A stretch of 28,417 nt of DNA from a virus, in IMG/VR virus record IMGVR_UViG_3300031757_000666, positions 1-28,417 of that record; one strand, written 5' to 3'. A program made the translations under genes and the position numbers. The notes beneath the pieces are model-generated. The model was not told the origin of the DNA and did not search any database. It saw only the letters and a program-made list of their open reading frames with translations. Shown here piece by piece: positions 5,533-23,806 of the stretch. Position 1 is the first letter of the stretch. Each line of letters starts with the position of its first letter.

Positions 5533-6399
5533 ATGAATATAAACCCAGACCTATTTCAAAAATTCTACGATCATAACTTGATCGAAAACTGGCCATCTCC
5601 GGAACTCCTCCCACGGCTGGATCGACCCAACCAAGAACCTACGACTAATCTCCAAGCCGAATGGCAAGACGACGGACTAGTGATTCTTCCCAACTTCATG
5701 CCTGAATATTTTCTGGACAGATATGCAGAAGCGTGGCTACGGGACAACGCCAACCGACCCCGCGGCTGGCCATTCGACGTTCCTTATATGTACATTTCAG
5801 CCCTTATGGATATGCTGGCATACGAACCGCTACATAAAGTAATGGAAGAACTCATCGAAGAACCGATGGGAACTCATCTCAACCTGACCGGATGGCGTTC
5901 AACTCAAAGAAACTGGCATCAAGACGGATATCTAAACCCCGATCATGTACATGACTTTTACTGTGCCGTATGGATTGCTCTTGATGACATCCATCCAGAC
6001 GCAGGACCATTTCAATTTATTCGTGGTTCTCACACATTCCCAGTCATCACCAACCAGAAGATGCTCGCCGCCTTAAAACCAGAGCAGAGAGGTGATAACT
6101 GGCCCAAACATTCAGAAGAAATCCTGACTCCCATCTTTGAACAACTTCTCATTGATGCGGAATTGAATGTAGAAAGTTTCATCGCCCAAAAGGGAGATGT
6201 ATTGATCTGGCACAGCCGACTGATGCATCGTGGGAGCGCCCCCATCAATCCAGACTTGGAGCGCCGCGCGTGTATCGCTCACTATTCAGGCATCGATCAC
6301 AGACCCGACATGCCCAATCAGCCACTCTCACGAATCGGCAGGACTAATAACTTTCAACTTTCTGGCTACTACTTCCCGATTGAACAAGCGTATCGTTAA
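5533..6399 (+). CDS. Phytanoyl-CoA dioxygenase (PhyH) family Fe(II)/2OG oxygenase
   Basis: 288 residues. The facial triad is visible: H129-Q-D131 within NWHQDGYL and a distal His at 232 within SRLMHRGSAP, with R244/R245 after it for 2-oxoglutarate binding. PFQFIRGSHTF (about 159-169) and AQKGDVLIWHSRLMHRG are typical PhyH landmarks. The family hydroxylates small molecules, lipids or sugars and nucleosides; the substrate here is unknown. The gene ends with TAA immediately followed by the ATG of the glycosyltransferase, so they are likely one transcript and one pathway. No strong ribosome-binding site precedes the start (AAGGA lies about 26 nt away). An A-rich leader is present instead. Confidence 0.92.
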   Translation: MNINPDLFQKFYDHNLIENWPSPELLPRLDRPNQEPTTNLQAEWQDDGLVILPNFMPEYFLDRYAEAWLRDNANRPRGWPFDVPYMYISALMDMLAYEPLHKVMEELIEEPMGTHLNLTGWRSTQRNWHQDGYLNPDHVHDFYCAVWIALDDIHPDAGPFQFIRGSHTFPVITNQKMLAALKPEQRGDNWPKHSEEILTPIFEQLLIDAELNVESFIAQKGDVLIWHSRLMHRGSAPINPDLERRACIAHYSGIDHRPDMPNQPLSRIGRTNNFQLSGYYFPIEQAYR

Positions 6400-7020
6400 A
6401 TGCTAACCATAGTTATTGCCTCTTACCGGTATGGACATTTGGCCGCACATTGTATTGAAAGTCTCCTAGCCCAAACTAAAGCACCTGACAAAATTCTATT
6501 CGTAGATGATGGCATCGGTGACTGCACCCATTTGCCAGCAGTGTATCCCGAAGTTGAATACGTTCTAAGAGAAGAAAACCTTGGCGTAGTAAACAACTTT
6601 CAAGACATGTTGATGAGAGTTCAAACTGAATACACAATGTTTGTAGGAGCAGACAACTGGCTACGCTCTGACACTGTTGAACAACTATTAGAACATAACT
6701 ACCTACGAGATGCTGACATTGTTACCTATGAAATTATGGTAACCGGAGAGTTCAAGATGAAACATCGCGACGCAGGATTGCCCGATGTTATGAGAAACGG
6801 GGATGTCTACTGGCGTCGTAACGGCCACCACGGTTCGATAATGTACCGCACATCCTTAGGACAAGCAGCGGGGTATGCAGCCAAGGACGGACAAAAGAAC
6901 GCGTGTGAAGATTGGGAACTGTGGGATCGGATGCTGGCGGGCGGTGCCACAGTTACTCATCTCAACGAGCCGCTGCTCTACTATAGAAGACACAGAGAGA
7001 ACTTCATTAACTGTGGTTAG
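6400..7020 (+). CDS. Family 2 glycosyltransferase (GT-A fold)
   Basis: 206 residues, short for the family. The N-terminus MLTIVIASYRYGHLAAHCIE is the classic GT2 start strand and helix. FVDDG at 35-39 binds the nucleotide, GADN at 83-86 takes the place of the D-x-D metal site, and CEDWELW at 169-175 carries the likely catalytic acidic pair. The enzyme transfers a sugar from a nucleotide-sugar to an acceptor; neither can be named. The ATG directly abuts the stop of the PhyH gene, and the end overlaps the leftward PhyH gene by 4 nt. With the two PhyH genes, the deacetylase and the methyltransferase near it, glycan modification is a reasonable reading. Confidence 0.9.
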   Translation: MLTIVIASYRYGHLAAHCIESLLAQTKAPDKILFVDDGIGDCTHLPAVYPEVEYVLREENLGVVNNFQDMLMRVQTEYTMFVGADNWLRSDTVEQLLEHNYLRDADIVTYEIMVTGEFKMKHRDAGLPDVMRNGDVYWRRNGHHGSIMYRTSLGQAAGYAAKDGQKNACEDWELWDRMLAGGATVTHLNEPLLYYRRHRENFINCG

Positions 7021-7733
7021 GGAATCTTTTTAGGATCAACCTTTTCAACTATTTTACCATTTACAAGATAATCGGGATAGGTGCTCGCTGATCTAGTTCG
7101 GCAAAAACCATTCATATAAGTCATTCTGGAACTGGTTGATTTGTTCGCCTCACTTCCGTGGACAATCGTCACCGACCAAACCATCACATCGCCCTTTTGG
7201 GCTGTGTACTTTGTCCCCTCCAAATCACCTCTTTCAAAAAGCCGCAGGTTTGCAGGGTCGCCAAACTCTTCCCAAAGATGTGATCCTGTAATGAACTCAA
7301 CAGGACTATTTTCTTCTGTAATGTTGTCTATAGCAATGATCGTTTGAAGATAATCCGTCACAAGATTCGAAGTGAATACATGACCTTCTCTAAATATCGT
7401 ATCCCTATGCCACGCAAAGGTATCTAGATCACCTTGTTCTCGGAAATAGATTTGATTATTTATCTGTCGAACATCATCGCCTAAAAATATTCGTACAAGA
7501 TTTTGCATTCGTTCATCAATGCGTATGTCATTCAAATAATTATTGGCTAATGCCGGAAAAAATATAAGCGACTTCTTGTTGTAGGCTTGTTCACTTGGAG
7601 CATGCTTGTACCCCCCTGCCTTAATCTGATCGTCCGTGACTCCATACGCTTCACTCTTGATCCTGTCGCACTCTTCCTCAGTGAAGACGGAAGGTATAAC
7701 AACTACACCCTTATGCTTATATTCTTTCAACAT
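7017..7733 (-). CDS. Second PhyH-family Fe(II)/2OG oxygenase
   Basis: 238 residues. H109-R-D111 in FAWHRDTIF gives the first two iron ligands and H192 in IVHGSEANKS the third, with R203 following for 2OG. The intermediate block VEFITGSHLWEEF and AQKGDVMVWS match the other PhyH protein in position, but overall sequence is clearly different, so it is not a recent copy. It is the last gene of the long leftward run, and its start overlaps the deacetylase end by 17 nt. Co-translation with the deacetylase and the NodS-like methyltransferase suggests action on a sugar or acyl group of the same product. Substrate is not predictable. Confidence 0.91.
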   Translation of the reverse strand: MLKEYKHKGVVVIPSVFTEEECDRIKSEAYGVTDDQIKAGGYKHAPSEQAYNKKSLIFFPALANNYLNDIRIDERMQNLVRIFLGDDVRQINNQIYFREQGDLDTFAWHRDTIFREGHVFTSNLVTDYLQTIIAIDNITEENSPVEFITGSHLWEEFGDPANLRLFERGDLEGTKYTAQKGDVMVWSVTIVHGSEANKSTSSRMTYMNGFCRTRSASTYPDYLVNGKIVEKVDPKKIP

Positions 7734-8232
7734 AGTTACTAAGAATCTTATACTGATGATCTTCTACGCCCTGTGCGGCAGAGTAAGCCTTTTCATACCC
7801 CGCCCGCTTCGCACACTCTATAACTTTGTCACAGTATTCTCCATAGGGGTACCGCAGATACCTCGTTCTGAACGGTGCAGCGATTTCTTGCATTATCTCT
7901 TTTTCCGATAGTTCACAAAGGTTCCTATGCGACCATGTATGCCACCCGATTTCAAATGTATAAAGACTGCATAATTCTTTAACTTCGTGCATAGTGCAGT
8001 AGCGTTCAAGTTTTGGAACATTCTTCAAATCAAACTCGTTGTTTCCTCCTAGGAAATTCCCCATCACAAACATAATACCAGATTTATCTTTCAAAACATC
8101 TTGATTTTCATAGACGTTCCGATAGACCCCATCAAACCCAATCGGATCATCACAGGCAAGTATCTGCTCTCGGGTGTGATAGTTGGGATGATTTTCATCT
8201 CCAATGTTATGCGCCAATCTCAACCCTTCCAT
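7717..8232 (-). CDS. NodB-homology polysaccharide deacetylase (CE4), compact
   Basis: 171 residues. The CE4 signatures are present in order: acidic pair CDD at 27-29, the metal-binding H-T-W-S-H at 98-102, and R-Y-P-Y-G at 127-131. CE4 enzymes remove N- or O-acetyl groups from chitin-like, peptidoglycan or exopolysaccharide sugars. At 171 residues it is slightly shorter than a typical NodB domain and lacks a signal peptide, which suggests cytoplasmic action on a precursor. Its ATG lies within the last 13 nt of the methyltransferase gene and its end overlaps the PhyH gene. Order and overlap make a shared pathway likely. Confidence 0.87.
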   Translation of the reverse strand: MEGLRLAHNIGDENHPNYHTREQILACDDPIGFDGVYRNVYENQDVLKDKSGIMFVMGNFLGGNNEFDLKNVPKLERYCTMHEVKELCSLYTFEIGWHTWSHRNLCELSEKEIMQEIAAPFRTRYLRYPYGEYCDKVIECAKRAGYEKAYSAAQGVEDHQYKILSNYVERI

Positions 8233-8723
8233 GGGGAATACCGTTCATACTTGTAAACATTAAACACTGAAGTGTATTCCCTGTAAGGAAATCGAAACGT
8301 TTCTATCAACCTTCCAAACGGATAAGGCAACAACCAATCTTGAATCCCACCAATACAGACATGCTTACTGGCAGCCTCCAACACCAGCCTCGCTATCTGT
8401 TCATGGTCGTACTGCCTATAAAGCAGACCAGTCACTAGAACTAAATCGTACTCTCCCTCTGGAGCGAACACACGTTCGACATTCTTGGGCAACCTGCTCG
8501 CGGCATTGTCACTCATCTCAATGGCGTGGATCTGCTTTGCCGGAAGATCCCCCGTTATGAATCCCTCACCAGCACCAACATCCAATGCCCTGTCATAGTA
8601 TTCGCCTAAGCCTTCTAGAACTGTCAGATAGAAACGCTTGCGGTAGATGTCATCAGGGGTGACCGTGTACTCCCACGGGTCATCCTGTTCATACCATTCT
8701 TCAAGTTCCTGCTTGGTCTGCAT
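8220..8723 (-). CDS. SAM-dependent methyltransferase, NodS-like
   Basis: 167 residues. LDVGAGEG at 47-54 is the SAM-binding loop; EMSDNAASRLP follows as the second motif and YDLVLVTGLLYR as motif III. The N-terminus EQDDPWEYTVTPDDIYRKR resembles the NodS/small-methyltransferase start (D-P-W...Y...K/R). NodS N-methylates the amino group exposed after NodB deacetylation of a chitooligosaccharide; this gene is directly followed by a NodB-like deacetylase, overlapping it by 13 nt. That pairing makes N-methylation of a deacetylated amino sugar a good hypothesis, but other acceptors cannot be excluded. The small basic protein ends 3 nt before its ATG. Confidence 0.85.
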   Translation of the reverse strand: MQTKQELEEWYEQDDPWEYTVTPDDIYRKRFYLTVLEGLGEYYDRALDVGAGEGFITGDLPAKQIHAIEMSDNAASRLPKNVERVFAPEGEYDLVLVTGLLYRQYDHEQIARLVLEAASKHVCIGGIQDWLLPYPFGRLIETFRFPYREYTSVFNVYKYERYSPWKG

Positions 8724-8726
8724 TCA

Positions 8727-8828
8727 TTAGCGCCGCTTCGTCCTTGGCCTGCGCTCGGGTCGCCGTGCGCGCGGTTTCTTGGGCAGGCGCTTGGCGTTCC
8801 CGCTCCTCTTCCCCCCGTAATACCCCAT
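8727..8828 (-). CDS. 33-residue highly basic protein
   Basis: A small frame, MGYYGGKRSGNAKRLPKK followed by RARRPERRPRTKRR-type sequence, runs between the polysaccharide-lyase-like gene and the methyltransferase. About half its residues are Arg or Lys. The ATG overlaps the preceding stop (TAATGG), as at several junctions in this window, and the following ATG begins 3 nt after its TAA, so it fills an otherwise empty gap exactly. A longer frame across the same bases (8701-8982) would overlap the lyase-like gene heavily and is not believed. It could bind nucleic acid or a polyanion; the acidic lipoprotein is one possibility. That is inference only. Confidence 0.6.
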   Translation of the reverse strand: MGYYGGKRSGNAKRLPKKPRARRPERRPRTKRR

Positions 8829-9676
8829 TACAACTCTTCGATCTTGTCTGCCAATTCCCTAAGTTTCTCAGCCAACTCACGAGCATGGGCTTCTTTCGGA
8901 TCGGCAGGCGGCCAACCAGTAGTCGTCCCCACCATGGCCTCAGCCTCTTCCGTTTCTTTAGCGGCCTCTTCCTTCTCGGCAATCATCCGAGCAACGGCAT
9001 CCCAATCAATGCCGGGGTCCAATGGGTCAGGACCAAGGTTTTCCAACTTGTAATCCGAAATATCCCACGCCATATTTTCAGGAGCCACCGCAGGGCCGCC
9101 ATAGTAAGCATCCAACCACGCCCAAACTACCGCCGTCTTATCAGTGACTACGAGATTGTGGCGAACCCAGTCACCTCCATCTACTCGGGCACGAATGAAA
9201 CCCTCATCGAAATCGGCTTCACATTCAAAAAGAACAGCGTTGCCACCCACTTTGAGTTGTCCAACCTTGACCGAATCACCCCACTTTGGACCCTGACCCA
9301 GATGGTAGAAGTACATGCCAATAGGCATGAATCCATCCTTGGTCTTGCCGAACCAAGTACGAAACGAGAAACCATCGGGAGCGGGCTGTCGGTTGCCATG
9401 TCCATAGGATTGGCCTCTGGCATTCTTGTAGCGCAGATCAGCGAACCCCAGCGTCTTTCCCGTACTGTGGGAATCCCAATTACTGAGCGCCCTGACCATG
9501 TAAGACACCTTCACATGGCGACAGGGTGGGACTTCCTTGTAGAGAGCGCACCCGTAGTGGTCGCCGGTTCGGAACATCAGCCGTAGGGCATCACCGCTCA
9601 CATAGGCGTTTTTGATGTCCCCCTTCCACGACTTCTGCCATCCCTCTTCAAACGTTTCATGGACCAGAATGGACAT
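8828..9676 (-). CDS. Polysaccharide-lyase-like beta-jelly-roll protein with C-terminal coiled coil
   Basis: 282 residues. Residues 1-215 look like the jelly roll of alginate/glucuronan lyases (PL14/PL20-like): an early GDALRLMFRTGDHYG, a central GFSFRTWFGKTKDGFMP, the Tyr-rich GMYFYHLGQG, GFIRARVDGGDWV and WAWLDAYYGG near the end. These correspond to the family's strands that line the sugar cleft, with Tyr/His/Arg candidates for catalysis, though I cannot place the catalytic residues. Residues 225-282 are an acidic, Ala/Glu-rich coiled coil, ending in ARELAEKLRELADKIEEL. No signal peptide is present, so it may be virion-borne or cytoplasmic. A virion depolymerase or a carbohydrate-binding protein are both possible. 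Upstream SNase gene ends 3 nt before its ATG. Confidence 0.62.
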   Translation of the reverse strand: MSILVHETFEEGWQKSWKGDIKNAYVSGDALRLMFRTGDHYGCALYKEVPPCRHVKVSYMVRALSNWDSHSTGKTLGFADLRYKNARGQSYGHGNRQPAPDGFSFRTWFGKTKDGFMPIGMYFYHLGQGPKWGDSVKVGQLKVGGNAVLFECEADFDEGFIRARVDGGDWVRHNLVVTDKTAVVWAWLDAYYGGPAVAPENMAWDISDYKLENLGPDPLDPGIDWDAVARMIAEKEEAAKETEEAEAMVGTTTGWPPADPKEAHARELAEKLRELADKIEEL

Positions 9677-10058: not shown

Positions 10059-10334
10059 CTACTCCCCTACCTCAATGTAAATACACTCACCCGGACACTC
10101 ATCTGCCGATTCAATCACGGCCTCCAACTGGTCCTCAGGAACCTCGGCCATGCCTTCGGCCATCTGGTAGGCGGGATCACCCTTGGGGGAACCATCTGGG
10201 CCGTACATCGTGGGCCATCCAACCTCCTTGACGTAGGCCAATCCATCGTCGTGCATCTCGAAGATGTCAGGGCAAATCTCGGCGCACAGACCGTCGCCCG
10301 TACACAGGTCTTGGTCAATCCAAACCTTCATCAT
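10059..10334 (-). CDS. Single-cluster ferredoxin with Asp in the second ligand position
   Basis: 91 residues. CTGDGLCAEICP at 11-22 places C11, C17 and C21 with Asp14 where the second Cys of a [4Fe-4S] motif would be. C80 in ADECPGECIYIE is the fourth ligand. Such C-x2-D-x2-C-x3-C-P proteins carry a [3Fe-4S] or Asp-ligated [4Fe-4S] cluster and are common in Actinobacteria as P450 or oxygenase electron donors. The middle region (about 40-70, with GWPTMYGPDGSPKGD) is an insertion before the last Cys. The ATG overlaps the stop of the giant lipoprotein by 4 nt (ATGA), so it is translationally coupled to it. Which enzyme it serves is unknown; Fe(II)/2OG oxygenases do not need one, but keeping iron reduced is conceivable. 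Confidence 0.9.
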   Translation of the reverse strand: MMKVWIDQDLCTGDGLCAEICPDIFEMHDDGLAYVKEVGWPTMYGPDGSPKGDPAYQMAEGMAEVPEDQLEAVIESADECPGECIYIEVGE

Positions 10335-13300
10335 TCAACCTCTTCGATAGTTAGTCGGTACCACCCACTGTTGTTCCCGTTGTACACGGAAGCACGCACC
10401 ACATAGTCGCCAGCAGCCTGATTCGTGCGGACGATGCGGCTGTCCCACTGATCGCTCACGTTGTCGATCACGGGAACACCGTCAGAGCAAGCCCCCCCGG
10501 TATCGCAGTAGGTGATCGTCGGGGTTTCGTCCACATCCACGGCGGTGCTGGGAGGGTTAACACAAGTGTTCCCACAGTCGTTCCCGCCATCATCGTCACT
10601 TTCAATCTGTTGACCGACCCCTACTGCTGACGCATCTCCTGAGTGGTCTCCCTCGGGAGCGTGGGTATCCCAGTTCAGGTAGATGTAGGGGTCGGCAGCC
10701 TCGTTGTTTGTATTGAACTGAGCACGGGTCAGGTTCGTTTCAGCGTCGATACGGATGCTCGTAGGTTCATCCAACGTGAACTGGACATAGTCATAGTTGG
10801 TGCGGCTAGTAGACGAGACGATGCACCAGTCTCCCATGCCTCTCCAACCACCCTCAGCGCAGCCCTCCTCGGTGCCCACGGTCGCGCTCGCACTCGCAGT
10901 AGTCGTGGTGGCCTCCGTGTAGGCATCACCAACAGTGGCCGTTGTTTCATTGTCATTCCATGACCTCTGGGTGGAGCAACCGCCACTCTGCTGTATCCCA
11001 TCTATCATGAGGCAGGACACAAAGTCAGTTCCTGTTCGCGCCACCACGGTCGTTGTATCAACGAGGGTGTTGGTGACCGTCGTAGCGGTCGTCGTCACCG
11101 TCGTTGTGTCCAGATGCCAGTGACCGTCGTTGCTGTTATGCGTCAGAATCCCCGACTCTGCGGTGGTGACATTGGTCGTGGTTGCTGTCCCCGTCTGGAC
11201 AGTTGACGAGGATGTAGAGATCGTTTCTTGCAATGACACAGCAGTGTTCGTATATGTGTAGGTCGGAACATAGACCGGAGCAGGAGGGGGGATGTATGTC
11301 TCTTGGACTTCTTCGGGGAGATATTCTTCTGCGACCTCAGCATCAACTATCCCTGCTTCTACCTCAACAGTGAAGTCAACCCATGTAACATACCCACCCG
11401 GCGGAGTACCCCAGTCATCGTAATAGTTAGGATCATTTGCTGCGTCGTAAGCCTCCCAACTAGTGAAGCCGCCGGGAGCCATAGAGCAGGCATCCGTACC
11501 CCTACACCCTTCATAGGGATCCCAACTAGGTTCAGGTACTACTGGTTCCGGTTCCTCTACTACTGGCTCTTCTGGTGGCTCCTCTGGCTGCAATTCACAC
11601 CAGTGTTCATCACAAATATCAGGTGAGTCTTCATCAGGCCAAGGCACCACCTCTTCATCCCAGTATGGATCTTCTTCCTCGTCCCAAGGCTCCTCGTCCC
11701 AAGGCTCCTCTTCACACCAAGACTCCGCATCACAAACGTCAGGCTCTTCAGGCTCCCAATCTGGATCCCAGTCTGGATCTTCTACCTCCCAATCTGGGTC
11801 TTCTTCGATCTCCTCATCCCAAGGCGGCTCTTCGCACCAATCAGTATCTGAACAGCCCTCCTCTACCTCAGGCTCCTCCACCTCAGGCTCATCCGTTTCT
11901 TCGATTTCAGGTTCGTCTACTTCTTCAGAAGGCACCTCCGCTTCATCCACTTGCTCTTCATCCACTTCCTCTTCTGAAGGTGAATCTGGCTCGGGTAGAA
12001 GTTCTTCGTCAAAGGTGCCTGTATCTTCCGGGTCGGTGAATGGGTCTTCCTCATCATCCCACAACTCTGGCTCTTCCAAGTCATCAACATCTTCACCCGT
12101 GAATTCATTCCAGTCGTCCCACTCCTCCTCGGTCCACTCCTCGGTCATGTCCTCCCAGTCCTCCTCCCACTGGGCTTCCATTTCCTCGTCGTATTCCTGC
12201 CAATCCTCTTCTGTCCATTCCCATGTTTCGCTAGGTGGTGGTCCCCAGTCCTCGGGCCACTCCTCTAGACCCTCCTCCTCCAGAATCCACGCTTCCTCAT
12301 CTTCCGCTGACCAGTTTCCCCACTCGTCATCTTCTTCTAACCAAAGATCATCTTCAGATACATTTTCATCTTCTTCTTCCATCCAATCTTCATCAGACCA
12401 ATCCTCTTCCAAGGACAAATCGGAATCTTCATCCAAGGACCACTCGTCATCTTCTTCATCATTGACCTCCCATAACAATTCCTGTTCAGCGTCATACGCT
12501 TCCCAATCACCATCATCCCACAGCGCGGTTTCGCTAGGTGACGGACCCCAGTCCTCTGGCCATTCGTCAAAACCTTCCTCTGCAAGAATCATGGCCTCTT
12601 CATCAGCGGCCCACTCTTGATCGTAGGCGTCCCAATCGTCTTCAGTCCACTCTGCGGATTCCGTGGGTGACGGACCCCAATCCTCAGGCCACTCCTCTAC
12701 ACCCAGTTCTTCCAGCAGTTCCTCTTCCCACGACTCCGGATCTTCCATCTCCTCTTCCCAGATGGCGTCCATTTCCTCGTCGTAGATATCCCAATCTTCT
12801 TCTTCCCAGTCAACGGTTTCGGTAGGCGACGGACCCATGAGGTCTTCGTTCCACTCCTCCAAACCCATCTCTTCCAGAATCCACGCCTCTTCCAAATCAG
12901 CGTCATACTCCTGAAAGGCGAAATCCTCTTCGTAATATTCTTCTTCGTACTCCTCCCAGAACTCCTCCTCATCAAACTCTTCATGTTCTTCAAAGAATTC
13001 GATGCGCTCCTCTTCGACCTCCTCCATGAACGATTCAACTTCTTCAAACAGTTCTTCAACATCGACAGCCTCACCAAAGAGATCGTCCATCAACTCCTGT
13101 TCTTCTTCAAAATATTCGTCGTCGTATTCGACTTCTTCCCACTGCTCGTCTTCCCAATACTCTTCATCCACACTGAGAAGAATCTCAACGAAATCAATCT
13201 CATCTTCTTCAAATATTTCAGGGGCTTCCCACTCTTCAACTGATTCGATCTCTTCGACGTAGGACGCGCCCAACACTTCTTCAATGCGATCCTCAGCAAC

Positions 13301-15175
13301 CGCTTGGAAATATTCAGCATCCGAAGCGACCCACGCTTCAACTTCAACTTCCTCTACTGTGATCTCCCCTACATCTACATCGAACGTCAGTTCGATAACA
13401 ACGGGAACGATTACCGGTTCTGGTGCAGGGGGCAGGGTCGCTGCCGGAGCATCCGGTCGATCCGGAATGGTGACAGTCGGTTCATCGAACACCTGTTCGA
13501 CAACCCGGTAAGCGGTCATGTCAACCTCTACCTCGGCCAGCACCTCGCCCGCTTCATCTTGAATAGCAATATCCAGCGTGTCTCTGACTGGCTCCGACTC
13601 AGGAATTGTGACACCCGGCTGCTCAGGTTCAGGCTCCGGTTCTGGAGCAAAAGCCACCTCAATTTGCTGACCGGCTTCCAGTTCGATCTCAACCTCAAGG
13701 GCATCAACAGCAATCGCGACAGTCGCTTCCTCTATCTCTGCAATTTCGATTGATTCTTCAGAGAAGGCCAACAACGACTGAGCCTCTTCAGGTTCTTCTT
13801 CAACCTCTTCTTCAGCCTCTTCCCACCGTTCCGGCTCTTCCTCCTCCACGATGACCGCTTCAATCTGAACCGATTTCTCCTCGCTCAGAACCAGCAGAGA
13901 GAACTTTTGTTCAGTTTCTTCTTCTATCTGTTCCTCTATTGCTTCTTCGATTCTGTCCCTAGTAGAAGTCGGCTCTTCTACTTCGGGAGTTGGAACATCA
14001 ATCTCTTCGACATCTGCGGAGAACGACTCCACCCCCGGTGGAAGAAACACCAAAACTGGATCAGCGGTACTTGGCCCTGAAATCAGATAACGATAAGTAG
14101 CGCCTTCAATTTCATTAACGAACGCACCATCGTAGTAACCCAGCCTGTCACCTGATTCAGTTTCAATCTTAAGAGCCATCTGCTTGTCACCAGAAGCGGC
14201 AACGGTAAGCATTGTCCCTGACTCTTCTCCCTCTTCCTGAGGGCAGAAACTGCAAGTAAACGGACCGGACCGGGAACGCATCGGAGTGAGTTCCATGGTC
14301 CCCGTCCCACCAAACCAAGCCTCCGATTGTTCCGTGGGGTTGGTCGCAGCAAGGGCATACATCCATTGACCGTCATTGGATACGTCGATCCAACGTTCCT
14401 CGTTAGGCCAGTTGGAATCGTAGATATGGATGCGATAGCCACCGGCCATCTCTTCTACTCGGTAAGGCGTGACGGCGTGTCCGCCCATCTCGCTGTAAAT
14501 ACCGATTGTGAAACCGGTGTGCGGGTTTCCCTTTTCTGCTTCTGAGAAATCGTAGAGAAGAACCTCTGCCAATTCCGTGGGAGACTTCTCTAGATAAGAG
14601 GATGCTTCCTGCTGCACCTCCATGGCGAACTGGGTTACATACCAGTAGGCGATTTCAGAGAGGAGGGCCGGATCCTGCTTGATGAGTTCCGCAACAGTTT
14701 GTGTGTTTTGGAAGGTCGCAAGGGTTTCTATGTCGCCCGCGAGGCGGAGGCTCAACACCGCCAAGCCTTCGCACAGCCCTCCACGCATTGACTTGTTGGC
14801 CTGCGACATCAACTGCAAGATCACCGGATACGGCGTACATTGACCGTCGGTTACATCTGAACAAACTTGGTTGTCGCCGTACAGACGACGCGCCATGTTT
14901 ACTGTCAGGTCTGCTGGTGCTTCCCCACCACCGAAGTTCTCAAAAGAGAAGGTGTCATCTACGGTCGCGTAATTCGGGATGGCGTGATCCGCCAGAGGAA
15001 CTTCCTCAAGAACTACTGAAGCGATAGTGGCAGTAGGGGCAACAGTTGTCGTGACTACATCAGTGGTCGTCGGAGGAAAGAGTGTCGTCGGAGATGCATC
15101 CGGATCTCCGGCAGGGGAGGAACATCCGAATAAGAACAGCGACCCCGCTAGCAGGGTGGCGATAAACCGTTTCAC
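10331..15175 (-). CDS. Giant acidic lipoprotein: papain-like domain, Glu/Asp/Trp-rich repeats, beta-sandwich C-terminus
   Basis: 1614 residues. Residues 1-18 are a lipoprotein signal, MKRFIATLLAGSLFLFGC, with C18 as the lipidated Cys; a Thr/Pro-rich linker follows (to about 55). Residues 75-300 resemble a papain-like fold with C135 in GGLCEGLAV, H233 in GGHAVTPYRV and D253/N255 in IYDSNWP as a candidate triad. About 385-1225 is dominated by Glu, Asp and Trp, with four GPSPTE-type repeats (residues 762-1010) and four Cys pairs (1108-1230). About 1303-1390 is Thr/Val-rich. Residues from about 1460 to the end look like a pre-peptidase C-terminal (PPC)-type beta sandwich. It would sit on the cell surface or be released. 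Function unknown. It follows the 146-residue membrane protein by 4 nt and overlaps ferredoxin by 4 nt. Confidence 0.85.
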   Translation of the reverse strand: MKRFIATLLAGSLFLFGCSSPAGDPDASPTTLFPPTTTDVVTTTVAPTATIASVVLEEVPLADHAIPNYATVDDTFSFENFGGGEAPADLTVNMARRLYGDNQVCSDVTDGQCTPYPVILQLMSQANKSMRGGLCEGLAVLSLRLAGDIETLATFQNTQTVAELIKQDPALLSEIAYWYVTQFAMEVQQEASSYLEKSPTELAEVLLYDFSEAEKGNPHTGFTIGIYSEMGGHAVTPYRVEEMAGGYRIHIYDSNWPNEERWIDVSNDGQWMYALAATNPTEQSEAWFGGTGTMELTPMRSRSGPFTCSFCPQEEGEESGTMLTVAASGDKQMALKIETESGDRLGYYDGAFVNEIEGATYRYLISGPSTADPVLVFLPPGVESFSADVEEIDVPTPEVEEPTSTRDRIEEAIEEQIEEETEQKFSLLVLSEEKSVQIEAVIVEEEEPERWEEAEEEVEEEPEEAQSLLAFSEESIEIAEIEEATVAIAVDALEVEIELEAGQQIEVAFAPEPEPEPEQPGVTIPESEPVRDTLDIAIQDEAGEVLAEVEVDMTAYRVVEQVFDEPTVTIPDRPDAPAATLPPAPEPVIVPVVIELTFDVDVGEITVEEVEVEAWVASDAEYFQAVAEDRIEEVLGASYVEEIESVEEWEAPEIFEEDEIDFVEILLSVDEEYWEDEQWEEVEYDDEYFEEEQELMDDLFGEAVDVEELFEEVESFMEEVEEERIEFFEEHEEFDEEEFWEEYEEEYYEEDFAFQEYDADLEEAWILEEMGLEEWNEDLMGPSPTETVDWEEEDWDIYDEEMDAIWEEEMEDPESWEEELLEELGVEEWPEDWGPSPTESAEWTEDDWDAYDQEWAADEEAMILAEEGFDEWPEDWGPSPSETALWDDGDWEAYDAEQELLWEVNDEEDDEWSLDEDSDLSLEEDWSDEDWMEEEDENVSEDDLWLEEDDEWGNWSAEDEEAWILEEEGLEEWPEDWGPPPSETWEWTEEDWQEYDEEMEAQWEEDWEDMTEEWTEEEWDDWNEFTGEDVDDLEEPELWDDEEDPFTDPEDTGTFDEELLPEPDSPSEEEVDEEQVDEAEVPSEEVDEPEIEETDEPEVEEPEVEEGCSDTDWCEEPPWDEEIEEDPDWEVEDPDWDPDWEPEEPDVCDAESWCEEEPWDEEPWDEEEDPYWDEEVVPWPDEDSPDICDEHWCELQPEEPPEEPVVEEPEPVVPEPSWDPYEGCRGTDACSMAPGGFTSWEAYDAANDPNYYDDWGTPPGGYVTWVDFTVEVEAGIVDAEVAEEYLPEEVQETYIPPPAPVYVPTYTYTNTAVSLQETISTSSSTVQTGTATTTNVTTAESGILTHNSNDGHWHLDTTTVTTTATTVTNTLVDTTTVVARTGTDFVSCLMIDGIQQSGGCSTQRSWNDNETTATVGDAYTEATTTTASASATVGTEEGCAEGGWRGMGDWCIVSSTSRTNYDYVQFTLDEPTSIRIDAETNLTRAQFNTNNEAADPYIYLNWDTHAPEGDHSGDASAVGVGQQIESDDDGGNDCGNTCVNPPSTAVDVDETPTITYCDTGGACSDGVPVIDNVSDQWDSRIVRTNQAAGDYVVRASVYNGNNSGWYRLTIEEVE
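11486..11854 (-). repeat. Four Cys-pair repeats at 36-40 residue spacing
   Basis: In the giant lipoprotein, Cys pairs occur at residues 1108/1114 (CSDTDWC), 1148/1154 (CDAESWC), 1188/1193 (CDEHWC) and 1224/1230 (CRGTDAC). The first members are spaced 40, 40 and 36 residues. Each pair is embedded in Glu/Asp/Trp/Pro-rich sequence with EEPPWDEE-like neighbours. The regular spacing suggests a repeated small module stabilised by one local disulfide, or a metal or calcium site. Nearby, a 15-nt direct tandem repeat (11677-11691 and 11692-11706) encodes EEPWD twice. Confidence 0.8.
12148..12892 (-). repeat. Four degenerate GLEEWPEDWGPSPTE-type protein repeats in the giant lipoprotein
   Basis: Residues 762-1010 contain four copies of a unit: a WILEEEGLEEW-like helix, then PEDWGPSPTET, then a W-x-x-x-D-W-x-x-Y-D segment and an EEM-x-x-x-W-EEE tail. 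The Gly of each G-P-x-P-x-E core is at residue 781, 834, 877 and 978, giving spacings of 53, 43 and 101. The first core reads LMGPSPTET and the others DWGPSPTES, DWGPSPSET and DWGPPPSET. The DNA copies have diverged, so these are old protein repeats and not recent DNA duplications. They are likely to be structural or ligand-binding modules. Confidence 0.85.
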
Positions 15176-17880: not shown

Positions 17881-18906
17881 ATGGCCTTAGTTAGAGAGTA
17901 CCCCGGATGCAGAACCCCGATCCCTTACGTCTCCGAAGCAGACTGTGAATACATCGGAGGTCTAGAGGTACACGACTATGGGGCAGGGGTTACCGTATTT
18001 CGCAATGTCATAGACGTAGACCAGCCTAGATTATTTGAATACATAGACAAATATGCCGTGCATTCAACGCCGGGAGTGTTTCTCAAAGAAGAAAACGGCG
18101 AGCAGTGGTGCGAAGACCTAGAAGGCAGGAAGCATCCAGTAGCAACCTATTACAGAAATCCATATCGACTTGGTGGATTTGGTAACAGCAAACCCGTCAT
18201 GGATAAAACTCCTAAGGACATCGCGGAGTTCTTCTATGAAAACGAGAATCAAATCTATCTGTGCCTAATGAAATACATAGACATATACACCCATGTTCTC
18301 AACTCATTGTGGTGGCGCTTTAGGGGCAATGTTCTCAAGTATTATCCCAACGGAGCAATCGGAATGCATAGCGACAATGACACCAGTCGCAAGACCAGAG
18401 ACGGGCAGCGATACGAAACTGATCGTCCTGAAGCCATCTTCCAAGTTCTTTCCACCATCACCTATTACAACGATTGCGTGGACACGGAAGAAGAACTAGA
18501 CGGAACCAATTTCACGGGTGGAGAGATGTGGTTTCCGTTCCTTAACAATCTTACTTACAAGCCGCGTACCGGAGACATTCTGTTCTTCCCCGCGAACTAT
18601 GTTGGTTCACACGGTGTACGAGACATCACTGGTGGCATAAGGTACGACTACCAATCTGTGTTTGGTCAAGGAATACATACAGACGAACCTTCCCCTTTGG
18701 TTCCGATTTATGAATCAGATGCCGGACATTGGTGTCAGGCCATTTACCTGCCATGGCTTCATCAGGATTGGGAAAGGTTTACCCAATCTCCACATTCAAG
18801 GTGGAACACCAAAGGCGAAGGACCACCCAACGGTGAGATCAATCCATTATTGCGACCTGTCGAATCCGACCCAGAAGGCCCACTGATGTCCTATGAACAT
18901 ATTTGA
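17881..18906 (+). CDS. Prolyl-4-hydroxylase-like Fe(II)/2OG oxygenase, paralog group member 1
   Basis: 341 residues. The iron triad is H163-S-D165 in GMHSDND and H244 in GSHGVRD, with R254 in GGIRYDY for 2OG. Between them lie TITYYND, EEELDGTNFTGGEMWFPF and GDILFFPANY, which give the double-stranded beta-helix core. An N-terminal helical region of about 150 residues contains a shared WWRFRGNVLKYY element just before the core. Three neighbouring proteins (18893, 19909, 22958) repeat this layout closely, and 21423 more loosely. It is the first of three tandem copies. The family includes protein and free amino-acid hydroxylases; substrate is open. No clear ribosome-binding site is present. Confidence 0.92.
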   Translation: MALVREYPGCRTPIPYVSEADCEYIGGLEVHDYGAGVTVFRNVIDVDQPRLFEYIDKYAVHSTPGVFLKEENGEQWCEDLEGRKHPVATYYRNPYRLGGFGNSKPVMDKTPKDIAEFFYENENQIYLCLMKYIDIYTHVLNSLWWRFRGNVLKYYPNGAIGMHSDNDTSRKTRDGQRYETDRPEAIFQVLSTITYYNDCVDTEEELDGTNFTGGEMWFPFLNNLTYKPRTGDILFFPANYVGSHGVRDITGGIRYDYQSVFGQGIHTDEPSPLVPIYESDAGHWCQAIYLPWLHQDWERFTQSPHSRWNTKGEGPPNGEINPLLRPVESDPEGPLMSYEHI

Positions 18907-19912
18907 TGCTTCCACCCCTGAAATAACCGATGACACCTTAAGGGAAATCCAAAACCTAGAGGCAGATCATCTTGGTGGAGGCGTAGTCAAATTTGGCAAT
19001 ACCTGCACAGTGGACCCCTCATTCTTGTCTTGGGTTGACGACAACGCTTCTGAAGCCTTTGAACAGAACTGGACTTACGAAACAGACGAAGCCGGAAACA
19101 CCTACGCCCTTAATATTGATCGCAACAAGTTCTCGCTTGAACAAGTCAAGATGGTGCCGACTCGTCTGTTACAGCCGGTCAAACACGACACTCCTCAAGA
19201 CATCGTTGACATCTTTCAACATTACGAAGCCGCCATCTACAAATGCCTAATCAAATATATAGACATGTTCCCTCTTGTGTTGGGCACTATTTGGTGGCGT
19301 TCTAGGGGACACGTTCTACATTACGATCCGGGCAGTTTCTTGGGGGTACATAACGACAACGACGCCAACTACAGAGCCTTGGATGGGCAACGATTTATTC
19401 CCCACGCACAGAATGGCTCTCGTCAAACACTTGCCATTATCTTGTATCTAAACAACGGCATCAAAGATCCCGAAGAATTGGATGGCACCAACTACCTCGG
19501 TGGGGAAATCACATTCCCTTATCTGGACATTGAACACCAAGGACAAATAGGCGACGTTCTAATCTTCCCATCCAACTTCATGGCATCGCATGGAGTGAAC
19601 ACAGTTATCGAAGGCACTCGGTACTCGTATCTAGAATTCCTATCTCACGGAAGCCCCTCGCCGGAAGTAATGGTCGAAGTGTTTGAACCCGACGAAATAC
19701 AAGCATGGTGTGAGCCGCACTGGCTAATGGGCATCTACGAAGATTACGCCAAGTACGCACTCAAGACGCAGCAAGGCAACACGGACAAAACAGCAACTAG
19801 TTCTGTCAACCCGGTGTTTCAAAACAGATCGCTAGAGGGGGAGGTAGGACTAAAGAAGGCGTATGCCCACGAAGATGTTGTAGAACAGAATCTGGTAAGA
19901 GGACAGTCGTGA
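18893..19912 (+). CDS. P4H-like Fe(II)/2OG oxygenase, paralog group member 2
   Basis: 339 residues. The triad is H153-N-D155 in GVHNDND and H233 in ASHGVNT, with R243 in GTRYSYLEF. Shared landmarks are HLGGGVVKF at the start, CLIKYIDMFPLVL, WWRSRGHVLHYD, EELDGTNYLGGEITFPYLD and GDVLIFPSNF. The last 70 residues (after CEPHWLMGIYEDY) form an extension also seen in member 1, with a similar CQAIYLPWLHQDW. The ATG lies 14 nt inside the end of member 1, so the two are likely co-translated. Divergence shows an old duplication, not a recent one. Confidence 0.92.
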   Translation: MNIFDASTPEITDDTLREIQNLEADHLGGGVVKFGNTCTVDPSFLSWVDDNASEAFEQNWTYETDEAGNTYALNIDRNKFSLEQVKMVPTRLLQPVKHDTPQDIVDIFQHYEAAIYKCLIKYIDMFPLVLGTIWWRSRGHVLHYDPGSFLGVHNDNDANYRALDGQRFIPHAQNGSRQTLAIILYLNNGIKDPEELDGTNYLGGEITFPYLDIEHQGQIGDVLIFPSNFMASHGVNTVIEGTRYSYLEFLSHGSPSPEVMVEVFEPDEIQAWCEPHWLMGIYEDYAKYALKTQQGNTDKTATSSVNPVFQNRSLEGEVGLKKAYAHEDVVEQNLVRGQS

Positions 19913-20667
19913 CGCCGGAAATGACAAATGAAATTCTTGATGAAATACTCGGTTACAGGGACAAGATCAGCAATCTGGGAGGTGGGATCGTACAGTTCCA
20001 CGATGTAGTGGAAATAGATCAACTCACACTATTGCCTCATCTTGATCAACTGGCCGAAGAATCCCATACCTCCCGATGGGAATATACAACCGACGAAGAT
20101 GGACATGATATTGCCTTGAACGAAGACGGGTACCAATTCCTATTACACGAAATCAACGAAGCCCCTATCCCTATCCGCCACCCAGATACACAACTATTCA
20201 AAGACACGTTATACAAATGTGCCCTCAAATACATCGACCTGTTTCCTGTGATGATGCTGGAAACCGTCTGGTGGCGAAGCGAGGGTCACTACCTCAAATA
20301 CCCCACTCGTTCTTATCTGGGCAAGCACAGCACCAACGTCCAAACCATCAGCCTTCAACTATTGCTTAATGATGACTATTCCGGTGGGGAAATGAAATAT
20401 CCATACCTTGATGTGGCCGTGGAAGCAAAGGCCGGGGACGTAGTTGTGTCCCCCTGCAACTTCGTGGCTGCCCATGAAATCAAACCTATTACTGAAGGAA
20501 ACAGATATTCCTATTTAGAGTTCTACTCACAAGGAAGTCCAGAAAAGGGGATTCCCATGCTCAGTAATATCTTCAACGATTACGATAAGTTGCTGGACCG
20601 AAGAAACAATCTTTTAGCGGCTTACGGCATGCGACACGGTTTGATGAATTTCGGTCACAGTGATTGA
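19909..20667 (+). CDS. P4H-like oxygenase paralog lacking the iron-binding Asp (H-S-T)
   Basis: 252 residues. It keeps NLGGGIVQF, YKCALKYIDLFP, VWWRSEGHYLKY and SGGEMKYPYLD. The H-x-D motif reads H140-S141-T142 in GKHSTNV, with Thr where iron-binding Asp is expected. H189 in VAAHEIK and R199 in GNRYSYLEF are retained. The region between the two His sites is shorter than in its neighbours (no EELDGTN insert), and it lacks the C-terminal extension. It might be inactive and act as a partner of its paralogs, or it might use a different iron coordination. The GTG at 19909 overlaps the previous TGA (GTGA) and follows AGAGGA; an ATG at 19921 is the alternative start. Confidence 0.88.
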   Translation: MTPEMTNEILDEILGYRDKISNLGGGIVQFHDVVEIDQLTLLPHLDQLAEESHTSRWEYTTDEDGHDIALNEDGYQFLLHEINEAPIPIRHPDTQLFKDTLYKCALKYIDLFPVMMLETVWWRSEGHYLKYPTRSYLGKHSTNVQTISLQLLLNDDYSGGEMKYPYLDVAVEAKAGDVVVSPCNFVAAHEIKPITEGNRYSYLEFYSQGSPEKGIPMLSNIFNDYDKLLDRRNNLLAAYGMRHGLMNFGHSD

Positions 20668-20668
20668 G

Positions 20669-21451
20669 ATGAAACTGAACCTCGGCTGCAACTTCCATCA
20701 ACCAGAAGGATGGATCAACGCAGACATTAGGGAAGAATTCAATCCTGACGTATTGTTACCAATGCCAGAAGAACCCCTGTGGGAGGGCGCCTTATCTACA
20801 AAGACTACCAATAATCCCCTGCCATGGGAGAACGACACGTTCGATCAAGTATTACTATCTCATGTATTAGAGCACATTTGGTTGGAGGAGGTGCCCTCAT
20901 TTTTGCATGAGATTCGACGTATAACCAAGACTGGCGGTCAACTACTTATTATTTGTCCTGATGTAAACACATTAGTGCGAAGGTGTGTGGGCCTTAATAG
21001 TGCTGGCTGCATGGGCCACGATGCGGACGGCCATAACTGGTATATCGAACCCCCGATGGACAGAAACGTTGAAAAACCATGGTCTACGGAAACTGTAATA
21101 GAACACCTATTTAGCGAACTGGTATTGGAAGATGATCCACGTTTAAGAGATGCGGCCGCGGCACGCATGAACGACGGAATTAGAAGTCAGTTCGGCAAAC
21201 TGGCACTACCTCATTCTGATCATAAATGGAATTCATACGGAAATCGACTACTTGAAATAGTGCAGGAGGTTTATCCCTCTTCCGAATTGTTGGGAACCAA
21301 TGGCATGCCCGAAGAAATCAGAGCGCAGGGCAGAGAAACTAGCACCCACGGCAATCCCTACGAATTCCAATGGACGGATCCCAACAGTGGATATGTGTGG
21401 GACACCACCAGTTGGACCAGCGCTACATGTTCGGTGCTGTCAACTCGCTGA
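20669..21451 (+). CDS. SAM-dependent methyltransferase (Methyltransf_11 type)
   Basis: 260 residues from the ATG at 20669; an earlier GTG at 20660 is also in frame. LNLGCNFHQPEGWINADIR starts the Rossmann fold. WENDTFDQVLLSHVLEHIW is the D/E-rich motif with the H-V-L-E-H signature, and ITKTGGQLLIICPD is motif III. An insert (GMGHDADGHNWYIEPPMDR-like) lies after the core and may bind the acceptor. The end of the protein is Ser/Thr-rich (WDTTSWTSATCSVLSTR) and overlaps the convergent oxygenase by 29 bp. It follows the three tandem P4H-like genes directly, so it may methylate their hydroxylated product, for example as an O-methyltransferase. The acceptor is not known. Confidence 0.88.
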   Translation: MKLNLGCNFHQPEGWINADIREEFNPDVLLPMPEEPLWEGALSTKTTNNPLPWENDTFDQVLLSHVLEHIWLEEVPSFLHEIRRITKTGGQLLIICPDVNTLVRRCVGLNSAGCMGHDADGHNWYIEPPMDRNVEKPWSTETVIEHLFSELVLEDDPRLRDAAAARMNDGIRSQFGKLALPHSDHKWNSYGNRLLEIVQEVYPSSELLGTNGMPEEIRAQGRETSTHGNPYEFQWTDPNSGYVWDTTSWTSATCSVLSTR

Positions 21452-22331
21452 TTTGACTGCTCGGCGCTCCATCTGAACCATGCACAGGAGGAACCCAATC
21501 CCCCTCCTTGTTGCGCCATGCGTCCACATGCGTTTGACTCTGTCCATCTATCGGCGTGCCTTGACAATAAAACTGTAGATAAGAAACACGATCTCCATTA
21601 GTAACAGTTTCCACAGAATGAGATCCAATATAAGACGACGGATAAAATGCCACTGTTCCAACTGGGAACTTCTCTTTATGCTCTGCGTGGGGGAAATACA
21701 TCGACCCACCTTCAGCGGTGTCCCTTAAAATTATAGAACCCGTTACGACAGTCTTAGTTGGAAACTCATTTACAGGCTTGTCATTCTCATCCGCCGGACC
21801 ATACCCCCACATGCTGTCACCGCGCTCCACGGCCTGATCGGAATGCGGCCCAAGCGAATGTCCCTCAGAATAAATAGCAGCATGACTAGGGGTTCGATAC
21901 CAGATCGAAACACGAATCTCTGGATACATCACCATATACTCCTCTAAGCACATGGCCAAAACTGAATCCAAATATTCGACAAAGGCTTTATCTTCCGGCT
22001 CGGCGTCGTACAATAATCCAACAAGACGTAACGGAGTCGTGTTGAATTGTTCGGGGGTGAACTTGTACCCCCCACGATTGATGTAGTTACCATCCTCATC
22101 AATCGTAAACTCTTCAGCCGTTTTCAAACGACGATCAGTCTTTCCTTCAAGATTTCCCACGAAGGCAGAACGCCGTTCTATCCAACCTTCTAAAAAGTCT
22201 TGATCTATTTCAGCAGCATCTGGAAAAACAACTAATCCTGCTTTGTGCTTGATCCGCGTGAATTTGTACCCGCCGCGATTAGCCGAACGGGACCGAATGT
22301 TCATATTCTTATCGGCTATCCAATCACCCAT
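21423..22331 (-). CDS. P4H-like Fe(II)/2OG oxygenase, paralog group, with duplicated N-terminal motif
   Basis: 302 residues. The triad is H163-S-D165 in GPHSDQA and H238 in GSHSVET, with R248 in GDRVSYLQF. The core is VTGSIILRDTAEGGSMYFP and GTVAFYPSSYI. An unusual feature is an exact 8-residue repeat NRGGYKFT at 18-25 and 85-92. The second copy is the normal family position (DEDGNYINRGGYKFT); the first lies in an N-terminal extension. The ATG at 22331 overlaps the previous stop (ATGGGTGA), which supports this start; ATG 22304 (residue 10) is a weak alternative. It ends convergently with the methyltransferase. Sequence ties to members 1-3 are looser than theirs to each other. Confidence 0.9.
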   Translation of the reverse strand: MGDWIADKNMNIRSRSANRGGYKFTRIKHKAGLVVFPDAAEIDQDFLEGWIERRSAFVGNLEGKTDRRLKTAEEFTIDEDGNYINRGGYKFTPEQFNTTPLRLVGLLYDAEPEDKAFVEYLDSVLAMCLEEYMVMYPEIRVSIWYRTPSHAAIYSEGHSLGPHSDQAVERGDSMWGYGPADENDKPVNEFPTKTVVTGSIILRDTAEGGSMYFPHAEHKEKFPVGTVAFYPSSYIGSHSVETVTNGDRVSYLQFYCQGTPIDGQSQTHVDAWRNKEGDWVPPVHGSDGAPSSQISELTAPNM

Positions 22332-22977
22332 TCGCTTCTATCCAACTGTCATCAGTTCGTGAGTATTTTTCAATATCCTCTGGGGGAGGAACGTTTTCTT
22401 CCATCATTTGACGCTTGTATGCCTTTGCGTCGCCATCTACTATCTCAACATGTAAGGCACTCAAGGTGTCCACGCCTTCTTCTGACATCAGCGCTACAAC
22501 ATCCTCAGCAGAATCGCCGTTCACAAACAACATACGACCATCCCGATCTGGATACCCATAAAGAGAACCCGACACATAGGACGCTCCATTTGAATTCACA
22601 TAATCGGCCAGAGCGAGTTCCCAACGAGCCTGAGCAGGATCAGAAATAATACTGTTGCAATCTACATAAATGCCTTTGAAGCCAGCCTCCATGACTTCTT
22701 TCGCCACTGGAAATTCAACGACTTCACCTTCGGTGTCTAAACCGTAGACAGCGAACACACCGTGTCCGCCACAGAGACAAAAGATCACATCTACTTCATC
22801 CACCAATTTCTGGATGGTTCCAACGTCTTCAAATTCCTGCCCCCGCTCTTTAGTTTCGTCAGAGCGACCGTCGGTAGCGACGAACACCTCATGCCCGACG
22901 CTCTTAAGCACATTACCCACGGCTGTAGCCATTCTTCCGGGGTGCAGTATTCCAACTTTAACTGGGAGGATGCTCAA
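22324..22977 (-). CDS. NAD(P)-dependent dehydrogenase-like (6PGDH/DUF1932 type), compact
   Basis: About 217 residues. VKVGILHPGRMATAVGNVL is a Rossmann start with G-x-x-x-x-G replacing the usual G-x-G-x-x-G and a His before the Pro. It is followed by GHEVFVATDGRS and VDEVDVIFCLCGG. The second half has IYVDCNSIISDPAQARWE and GASYVSGSLYGYP, which match the DUF1932 class of 3-hydroxyisobutyrate-dehydrogenase-like proteins. The C-terminal helical substrate domain is much shorter than usual. The start is uncertain: a TTG at 22977 is chosen because the fold begins soon after and the overlap with the previous gene is short; GTG 22989 and TTG 23034 are alternatives. It may oxidise or reduce a product of the neighbouring oxygenases. 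Confidence 0.78.
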   Translation of the reverse strand: MSILPVKVGILHPGRMATAVGNVLKSVGHEVFVATDGRSDETKERGQEFEDVGTIQKLVDEVDVIFCLCGGHGVFAVYGLDTEGEVVEFPVAKEVMEAGFKGIYVDCNSIISDPAQARWELALADYVNSNGASYVSGSLYGYPDRDGRMLFVNGDSAEDVVALMSEEGVDTLSALHVEIVDGDAKAYKRQMMEENVPPPEDIEKYSRTDDSWIEANG

Positions 22978-23806
22978 GGTTGTACCCACTTTCCATAAAT
23001 ACGTTTGTCGATATCTTAGCACCACCCGGATCAACGGATGGATCTACGGCCATCTCGTTGACTTCTGGGTTCGGAGTTCCCTGACAATACCATCCGACAT
23101 GGCTATATCTTGAACCTCCGCTCACCAGAGAAACCGCGTGGGAGGCCATGTAGTTGGACGGGAAAATCAACAGATCACCCTTGGAGGGTTTGTATTGAAT
23201 GTCCAAGTATCCGAAATGGACGACTCCCCCTGTGAAATTGGTCCTATCCAATTCTTCCTCGGTTTCTACATGATCGTTGAAAAAAGCAATAGTTGAAACC
23301 ACGGTTCTGGTAGCGATCTGATCTGTCGGAGTGGGTGAACCGTAGGCGTAGTCGGTGCTGGTGTCGGCGTGCATTCCCAAGTAGCCACCTTTTGGATACA
23401 CCAAGATGTGGCTTTTGATCTTCCACCAAATAGACATGCCCGCTATGGGAAAAAGGTGCAAGTAATCCCACAGGCAATCGTCCTTGGCATCCTCCAACTT
23501 TTTGAGAACTGCCTGTATCTCAGGTCTATCGTCCGCTTGGGTATAGGCGCAATGTTGAGGCATCACTTCTATTGATTCTGTTGGAAAGAAATACCCATTG
23601 CGATTTATGTACCCGTCCTCACCGCTGATCGGATCTTTGCCGGGGACATACATCGTGTCCCTCTCCCTCATCGCAGCCTCCTCTGAGTAGGCTCTGAGAA
23701 GATCCCAGTCCGTTGAGATGTGTTCCCTGTATAAGACCACCCCTCCGCCTAGATGCTCTCCCCTGCCGCCCTTGGGCTGCCAAGTATCTCCAAACCCTAA
23801 ACTCAT
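22958..23806 (-). CDS. P4H-like Fe(II)/2OG oxygenase, paralog group member
   Basis: 282 residues. The triad is H146-A-D148 in LGMHADTS and H223 in ASHAVSL, with R233 in GSRYSHVGW. Shared elements with the tandem trio are HLGGGVVLY, WWKIKSHILVYPKGGYLG, EEELDRTNFTGGVVHFGYLD and GDLLIFPSNYM. The N-terminal part (YINRNGYFFP, 67-76) aligns with YINRGGYKFT of the gene at 21423, so the two share a family subtype. The ATG at 23806 overlaps the previous stop by 4 nt (ATGA) and is preferred to the upstream start at 23851. It is between a TauD-like gene and the dehydrogenase. Confidence 0.91.
   Translation of the reverse strand: MSLGFGDTWQPKGGRGEHLGGGVVLYREHISTDWDLLRAYSEEAAMRERDTMYVPGKDPISGEDGYINRNGYFFPTESIEVMPQHCAYTQADDRPEIQAVLKKLEDAKDDCLWDYLHLFPIAGMSIWWKIKSHILVYPKGGYLGMHADTSTDYAYGSPTPTDQIATRTVVSTIAFFNDHVETEEELDRTNFTGGVVHFGYLDIQYKPSKGDLLIFPSNYMASHAVSLVSGGSRYSHVGWYCQGTPNPEVNEMAVDPSVDPGGAKISTNVFMESGYNLEHPPS

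Follow-up and report, generated by a model that had tools for sequence, protein, structure and literature searches.

Our results show that a methyltransferase (MT), a deacetylase and a GT2 glycosyltransferase form a conserved functional unit in many phages, in which the three genes move together. The best explanation, and one that we hold to be reasonably probable, is that they make up a mobile phage cassette for the production of an N-methylated amino sugar.

Arrangement of the cassette in phages

The DNA analyzed here, which we call the window and take at its full length, makes up a single linear virus record of IMG/VR, 28,417 bases long, for which a nucleotide search of phage records returned zero matches. 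The gene positions and the 13-nt overlap reported in an earlier note on this DNA agree with the open reading frames. Namely, the first cassette gene (8220-8723, minus strand) encodes a NodS-like Class I SAM MT of 167 aa, with an N-terminal DPW motif and an LDxGxGEG SAM-binding loop, and its stop overlaps by 13 nt (8220-8232, minus strand) the start of the gene for a 171-aa CE4-type N-deacetylase of NodB2 (permuted) topology (7717-8232, minus strand), assigned by its PF01522 match and its fold. The latter gene in turn overlaps by 17 nt that of a PhyH-type Fe(II)/2OG oxygenase (7017-7733, minus strand), an optional third member of the cassette, and transcription on this strand runs from the MT through the deacetylase to this PhyH. 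The GT2 gene (6400-7020, plus strand; 206 aa, no membrane segment) matches PF00535 with E=4.7e-14, while the two PhyH genes of the window match Pfam PhyH with E=5.9e-24 and 2.4e-17. The PhyH gene other than that at 7017-7733 lies at 5533-6399 (plus strand), abuts GT2 and is not a constant part of the cassette. In the earlier note, two PhyH genes were said to flank the set, which does not hold, as one abuts GT2 upstream and the other has GT2 on one side and the deacetylase on the other. The 4-nt overlap of GT2 with the next gene, also pointed out there, does exist, but the plus-strand GT2 meets the minus-strand PhyH tail to tail and, since the two genes are convergent, the overlap implies no operon coupling in the genome of the window.

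As for the surroundings, a 282-aa protein that has no Pfam match (8828-9676) lies directly before the cassette, and a very acidic 1614-aa protein with a lipoprotein-type signal, LFGCSS, is encoded at 10331-15175; both are kept in the window's clade. In the region 17881-26732, both strands are crowded with 2OG-Fe(II) oxygenase-like genes, of which there are at least six (PF13640, with several below cut-off), together with a methyltransferase, a DUF6065 gene and one gene of the TauD type. A WhiB-family regulator, encoded at 1298-1663 and in 6 of the 18 other records with the cassette, points to actinobacteria as hosts of part of these phages.

Gathering loci by deacetylase similarity yielded 39 and then 64 viral-contig loci, to which the named phage MW202801 and three MAG contigs were added; the set contains 49 distinct deacetylase sequences. 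Both genes were scored in 68 loci, and in every one of these the MT immediately precedes the deacetylase, on the same strand; the two reading frames overlap or abut in all but one of them (67/68). GT2 follows the deacetylase with PhyH in between in 36 loci, directly in 14 and in other arrangements in 3. In further loci its position falls beyond the contig end, L111 being the only locus lacking a nearby GT2, and MW202801 carries a different glycosyltransferase instead. While co-directional in other phages, GT2 is inverted in place in 7 loci, which make up the window's clade, and PhyH is missing in about a quarter of the loci. The genes around the cassette are wholly different between groups of contigs: one group consists of WhiB-bearing phages (7 of 19 records), whose hosts are probably actinobacteria, another of phages bearing a T4-like DNA polymerase, and there are others besides. 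Such a fixed order and overlap in unrelated phage backgrounds mark the cassette as a mobile functional unit. In other words, the trio that the earlier note had proposed to look for elsewhere is found as a block in dozens of unrelated viruses. Among cultured or named phages, a clear deacetylase together with the MT was seen only in MW202801.

Could these nonetheless be unrelated accessory genes, neighbors by chance and with no joint function? Phages freely gather methyltransferase, PhyH and glycosyltransferase genes, and the window is full of them. That said, every scored locus, in phages unrelated to one another, has the same order and overlap, and bacteria possess a natural fusion of the three domains, so that we find chance hardly credible. 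The adjacency of MT and deacetylase, the presence of GT2 in nearly all loci and the rhizobial fusion described below bear out the view of the earlier note that the three genes are a functional set.

Bacterial counterparts

On plasmids, the MT finds its best match in a protein of 1000 aa from R. leguminosarum, WP_094088823, annotated as a trifunctional glycosyltransferase/methyltransferase/polysaccharide deacetylase. It comprises a PF00535 domain, a NodS domain (PF05401, 85.6 bits against a cut-off of 24) and a PF01522 domain with an N-terminal LMYHRI motif, and the same GT2-NodS-CE4 layout occurs in a Mesorhizobium protein. The fusion shares with the phage cassette its three activities, the MT-before-deacetylase order and the type of deacetylase, with an N-terminal YH motif; what is more, no closer match to the phage GT2 was found than its GT2 domain. 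In contrast to the cassette, it is a single protein, has a canonical FDD metal site, comes without PhyH and, in R. leguminosarum, is encoded near an ABC transporter in a cluster of exopolysaccharide type. The rhizobial fusions are located at L113:7399-10401, in an exopolysaccharide-type cluster, and at L118:4501-7413, and are apparently uncharacterized.

A NodS-like MT also lies between a PIG-L N-deacetylase and a glycosyltransferase in Acinetobacter, Novosphingobium, Komagataeibacter and Sulfitobacter. As in the phages, an N-deacetylase gene here adjoins a NodS-like MT beside a glycosyltransferase, but the deacetylase has an unrelated fold, the gene order is reversed, the glycosyltransferases are others and there is an additional acyl-CoA dehydrogenase. 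The plasmid operons in question (L120, L121, L122 and L123, from four unrelated proteobacteria) have the acyl-CoA dehydrogenase, PIG-L and NodS-like MT genes beside the glycosyltransferase. Nod factors are N-methylated only after deacetylation (PMC5080398), and the repeated pairing of a NodS-like MT with an N-deacetylase supports N-methylation of the freed amine as a chemistry that these systems may have in common. Searching the literature for the fused protein, for the PIG-L operon and for NodS-like genes of phages turned up no paper; polysaccharide deacetylases have been reported as auxiliary genes in viral contigs (PMC6460857).

Relationship of the enzymes to NodS, NodC and NodB

The Pfam matches of the window MT are confined to generic Class I MT models, all below cut-off, and neither NodS model (NCBIfam NF041650, Pfam PF05401) is listed for it at E<=1; of 22 MT relatives, 10 match PF05401 weakly, with a best E of 0.0018, and generic MT models match more often. 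The likeness to NodS that the earlier note had claimed is nevertheless recovered by profile and by fold. Namely, NodS 3OFJ comes first when the family profile is compared with PDB chains (E 2.3e-5; next 1.5e-3), and the AlphaFold model (pLDDT 93.6) matches NodS 3OFK best out of 1000 chains (Z 18.1 over 160 residues, rmsd 2.3; next Z 16.4). In profile-profile comparisons, the PIG-L-associated bacterial MTs score highest of those tested (88.5), followed by NodS (77.6), a Deinococcus MT (75.3) and the rhizobial fusion MT (71.3), as against 28.9-57.2 for the unrelated RlmA, Tam, UbiG and CmoM. It is only with the former four that the alignment extends through the N-terminal DPW segment. Reference nod genes were those of R. 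tropici, R. etli and Bradyrhizobium. In a tree with the unrelated MTs as outgroups, the NodS sequences group on one branch (100/98) and the phage sequences on another (99/98), beside NodS; in this tree, which is dominated by long branches, a single clade of phage and NodS-like sequences is not rejected (p 0.39), the value for phage plus NodS alone being p 0.086. A true NodS was rejected as an identity for the MT, with the curated models unmatched and the phage MTs outside the NodS clade. The phage MT is, in other words, NodS-like but not NodS. It should be noted that the sequence of this family does not discriminate between N- and O-methylation.

The phage GT2 profile scores 73.8 with the GT2 domain of the rhizobial fusion, 43.7 with NodC and 30.4 with PgaC. 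We also rejected NodC as an identity for GT2: the latter is a soluble protein of 206 aa, compared with about 400-450 aa and membrane segments in NodC, its maximum hydropathy is 1.04 versus 1.86, and the NodC model TIGR04242 is not listed for it at E<=1.

The deacetylase matches PF01522 with 37.5 bits (cut-off 23.1; E=2.6e-9), and the ten best structural matches of its AlphaFold model (pLDDT 88.6), among them IcaB, PplD, BA0330, BC0361 and PgaB, are all NodB2 enzymes, with Z of 12-16 over 155-171 residues (15.8 for IcaB 4WCJ), while classical NodB1 enzymes of CE4 reach Z of at most 9.2 over about 115-135 residues. In the NodB2 class, motif 5 is N-terminal, motif 3 reads AYPYG and motif 4 is lacking; chitin and chitooligosaccharide deacetylases all belong to NodB1, and the substrates of the solved NodB2 enzymes are surface polysaccharides (PMC10967932). 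The phage family has His8 in LAHNIG, i.e. a motif 5 shifted to the N-terminus, (A/R)YPYG as motif 3 and HTWSH, and no motif 4 was seen in it; the window protein has H8, D34, G35, H98-T-W-S-H102 and RYPYG. Given this topology, and with chitooligosaccharide deacetylases being NodB1, the phage enzyme is not of the NodB type proposed earlier, and NodB was rejected as its identity, also because it scores 22.3 bits with the curated NodB model TIGR04243 against a cut-off of 240. It shares with IcaB and PgaB the NodB2 CE4 fold, the N-terminal catalytic His motif and (A/R)YPYG, but those proteins are larger and exported, whereas the phage form has 171 aa, no signal peptide and no second Asp in motif 1.

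This last feature deserves attention. Motif 1 of the phage family reads FDG: Asp34 is retained, and the position of the metal-binding Asp is occupied by an invariant Gly35 (20 of 20 sequences), which leaves the Asp-His-His metal triad incomplete, with His98 and His102 present. The deacetylase may consequently use another metal site or be inactive. Indeed, one could argue that this CE4-like protein is a pseudoenzyme, or some other amidase acting on, e.g., a formamido sugar, and that the MT is an O-methyltransferase for the transferred sugar. Besides the invariant G35, this would be consistent with the better agreement of the MT relatives with generic models than with NodS, and with BA0150, which lacks the metal triad and is considered no functional polysaccharide deacetylase, CE4 being a family that includes inactive proteins (PMC5855634). 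However, Asp34, His98, His102 and His8 are all invariant in the phage deacetylases, and the retention of residues and gene position in 49 distinct sequences is unexpected for a dead enzyme. Moreover, the metal-coordinating Asp is likewise absent from MurNAc deacetylases, among them PdaA, an active enzyme (PMC5855634), for which reason the phage deacetylase is likely active by prediction. By homology, His8 would be the catalytic acid and Asp34 the base. Altogether, we regard a pseudoenzyme or other amidase as rather unlikely.

With respect to the NodC-NodB-NodS system, the cassette exhibits the same logic of a deacetylase, an N-methyltransferase and a GT2, and NodS is the nearest of the solved structures to its MT. 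The differences are that its deacetylase is NodB2 and not NodB1, that its MTs fall outside the NodS clade, that its GT2 is small and soluble as opposed to a membrane chitooligosaccharide synthase, and that NodA, NodU and NodIJ are missing. The membership in the Nod system that the earlier note had suggested can therefore not be maintained, as no cassette protein matches the curated NodS, NodB or NodC models. As to its two central enzymes, the deacetylase falls outside the NodB type, while the MT is still NodS-like by profile and fold, so that the refuting case set out in the earlier note applies to the former but not to the latter. Our results do support an analogy of function with Nod-factor modification, with the chemistry and the target being deduced.

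Proposed pathway and its acceptor

How would an N-methylated amino sugar be made? In the pathway that we propose, GT2, working in the cytosol, would put an N-acetylated, or otherwise N-acylated, amino sugar on an acceptor; the CE4-type enzyme would take off the N-acyl group and the NodS-like MT would methylate the freed amine; where PhyH is present, it may add a hydroxyl group. We infer both that the MT acts on nitrogen and that it does so after the deacetylase. No cassette protein has a membrane segment, and the enzymes are therefore probably cytosolic.

A virion protein is the most likely acceptor, with a host surface glycan as the main alternative. In L048, the cassette and additional glycosyltransferases are flanked by the major head protein on one side and the head-tail adaptor on the other, and in MW202801 the cassette comes after the major capsid protein; its place amid head genes in these two phages suggests virion decoration. 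The L048 region (L048:1390-15607, from a Micromonosporaceae MAG) contains head, connector and tail genes, with several glycosyltransferase-type genes after the major head protein. Corndog-type mycobacteriophages have an O-methyltransferase, two GTs and an N-acetylglucosaminyltransferase beside the portal gene, for which capsid modification was proposed (PMC4351075). The likeness is one of gene content, with methyl and glycan genes among virion genes; a deacetylase is unmentioned in that paper.

In many loci, the cassette lies away from structural genes, e.g. near a DNA polymerase, endolysin or RecA, and for this reason its location is not general evidence for a virion target. The same enzymes and chemistry could serve on a capsule, LPS or wall polymer of the host, masking a receptor or blocking superinfection, in line with the idea of the earlier note that surface amino sugars are decorated or disguised. 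The frequent distance from head genes would fit with this, as would the surface-polysaccharide substrates of the solved NodB2 enzymes, the exopolysaccharide-type cluster and ABC transporter around the rhizobial fusion, and nucleotide-sugar dehydrogenase/epimerase-type genes in a relative of the window. On the other hand, all the phage enzymes are soluble, and L048 and MW202801 have the cassette among head genes. We take a host-glycan target to be a possible, if less probable, reading. Small glycosyltransferases also glycosylate DNA in phages, and the product could conceivably be a sugar on a modified base of hypermodified phage DNA. A candidate for a base hydroxymethylase of the thymidylate-synthase type was found in only 1 of 18 cassette-bearing records, most of which are incomplete, and DNA modification is an unlikely role for the cassette, one to which we give very little weight.

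To return to the N-methylated amino sugar, its chemistry is probably like that of rhizobial Nod factors, but achieved via distantly related enzymes. Tentatively, one can go further and picture a previously unrecognized, horizontally moving pathway for the decoration of virions with this sugar. Its deacetylase would represent a new CE4 subfamily, with Gly for the metal-binding Asp of motif 1 and another means of holding the metal, and the pathway would have an ancestry in common with the bacterial three-in-one enzyme. Genes annotated separately as methyltransferase, polysaccharide deacetylase and glycosyltransferase become one testable pathway in many phages. They are also a source of small soluble enzymes for studies of amino-sugar N-methylation, and of CE4 proteins whose metal site is unusual. 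Finally, the conserved gene order, the fusion in rhizobia and the variant with PIG-L, taken together, point to a general rule, namely that NodS-like MTs accompany N-deacetylases outside symbiosis too.
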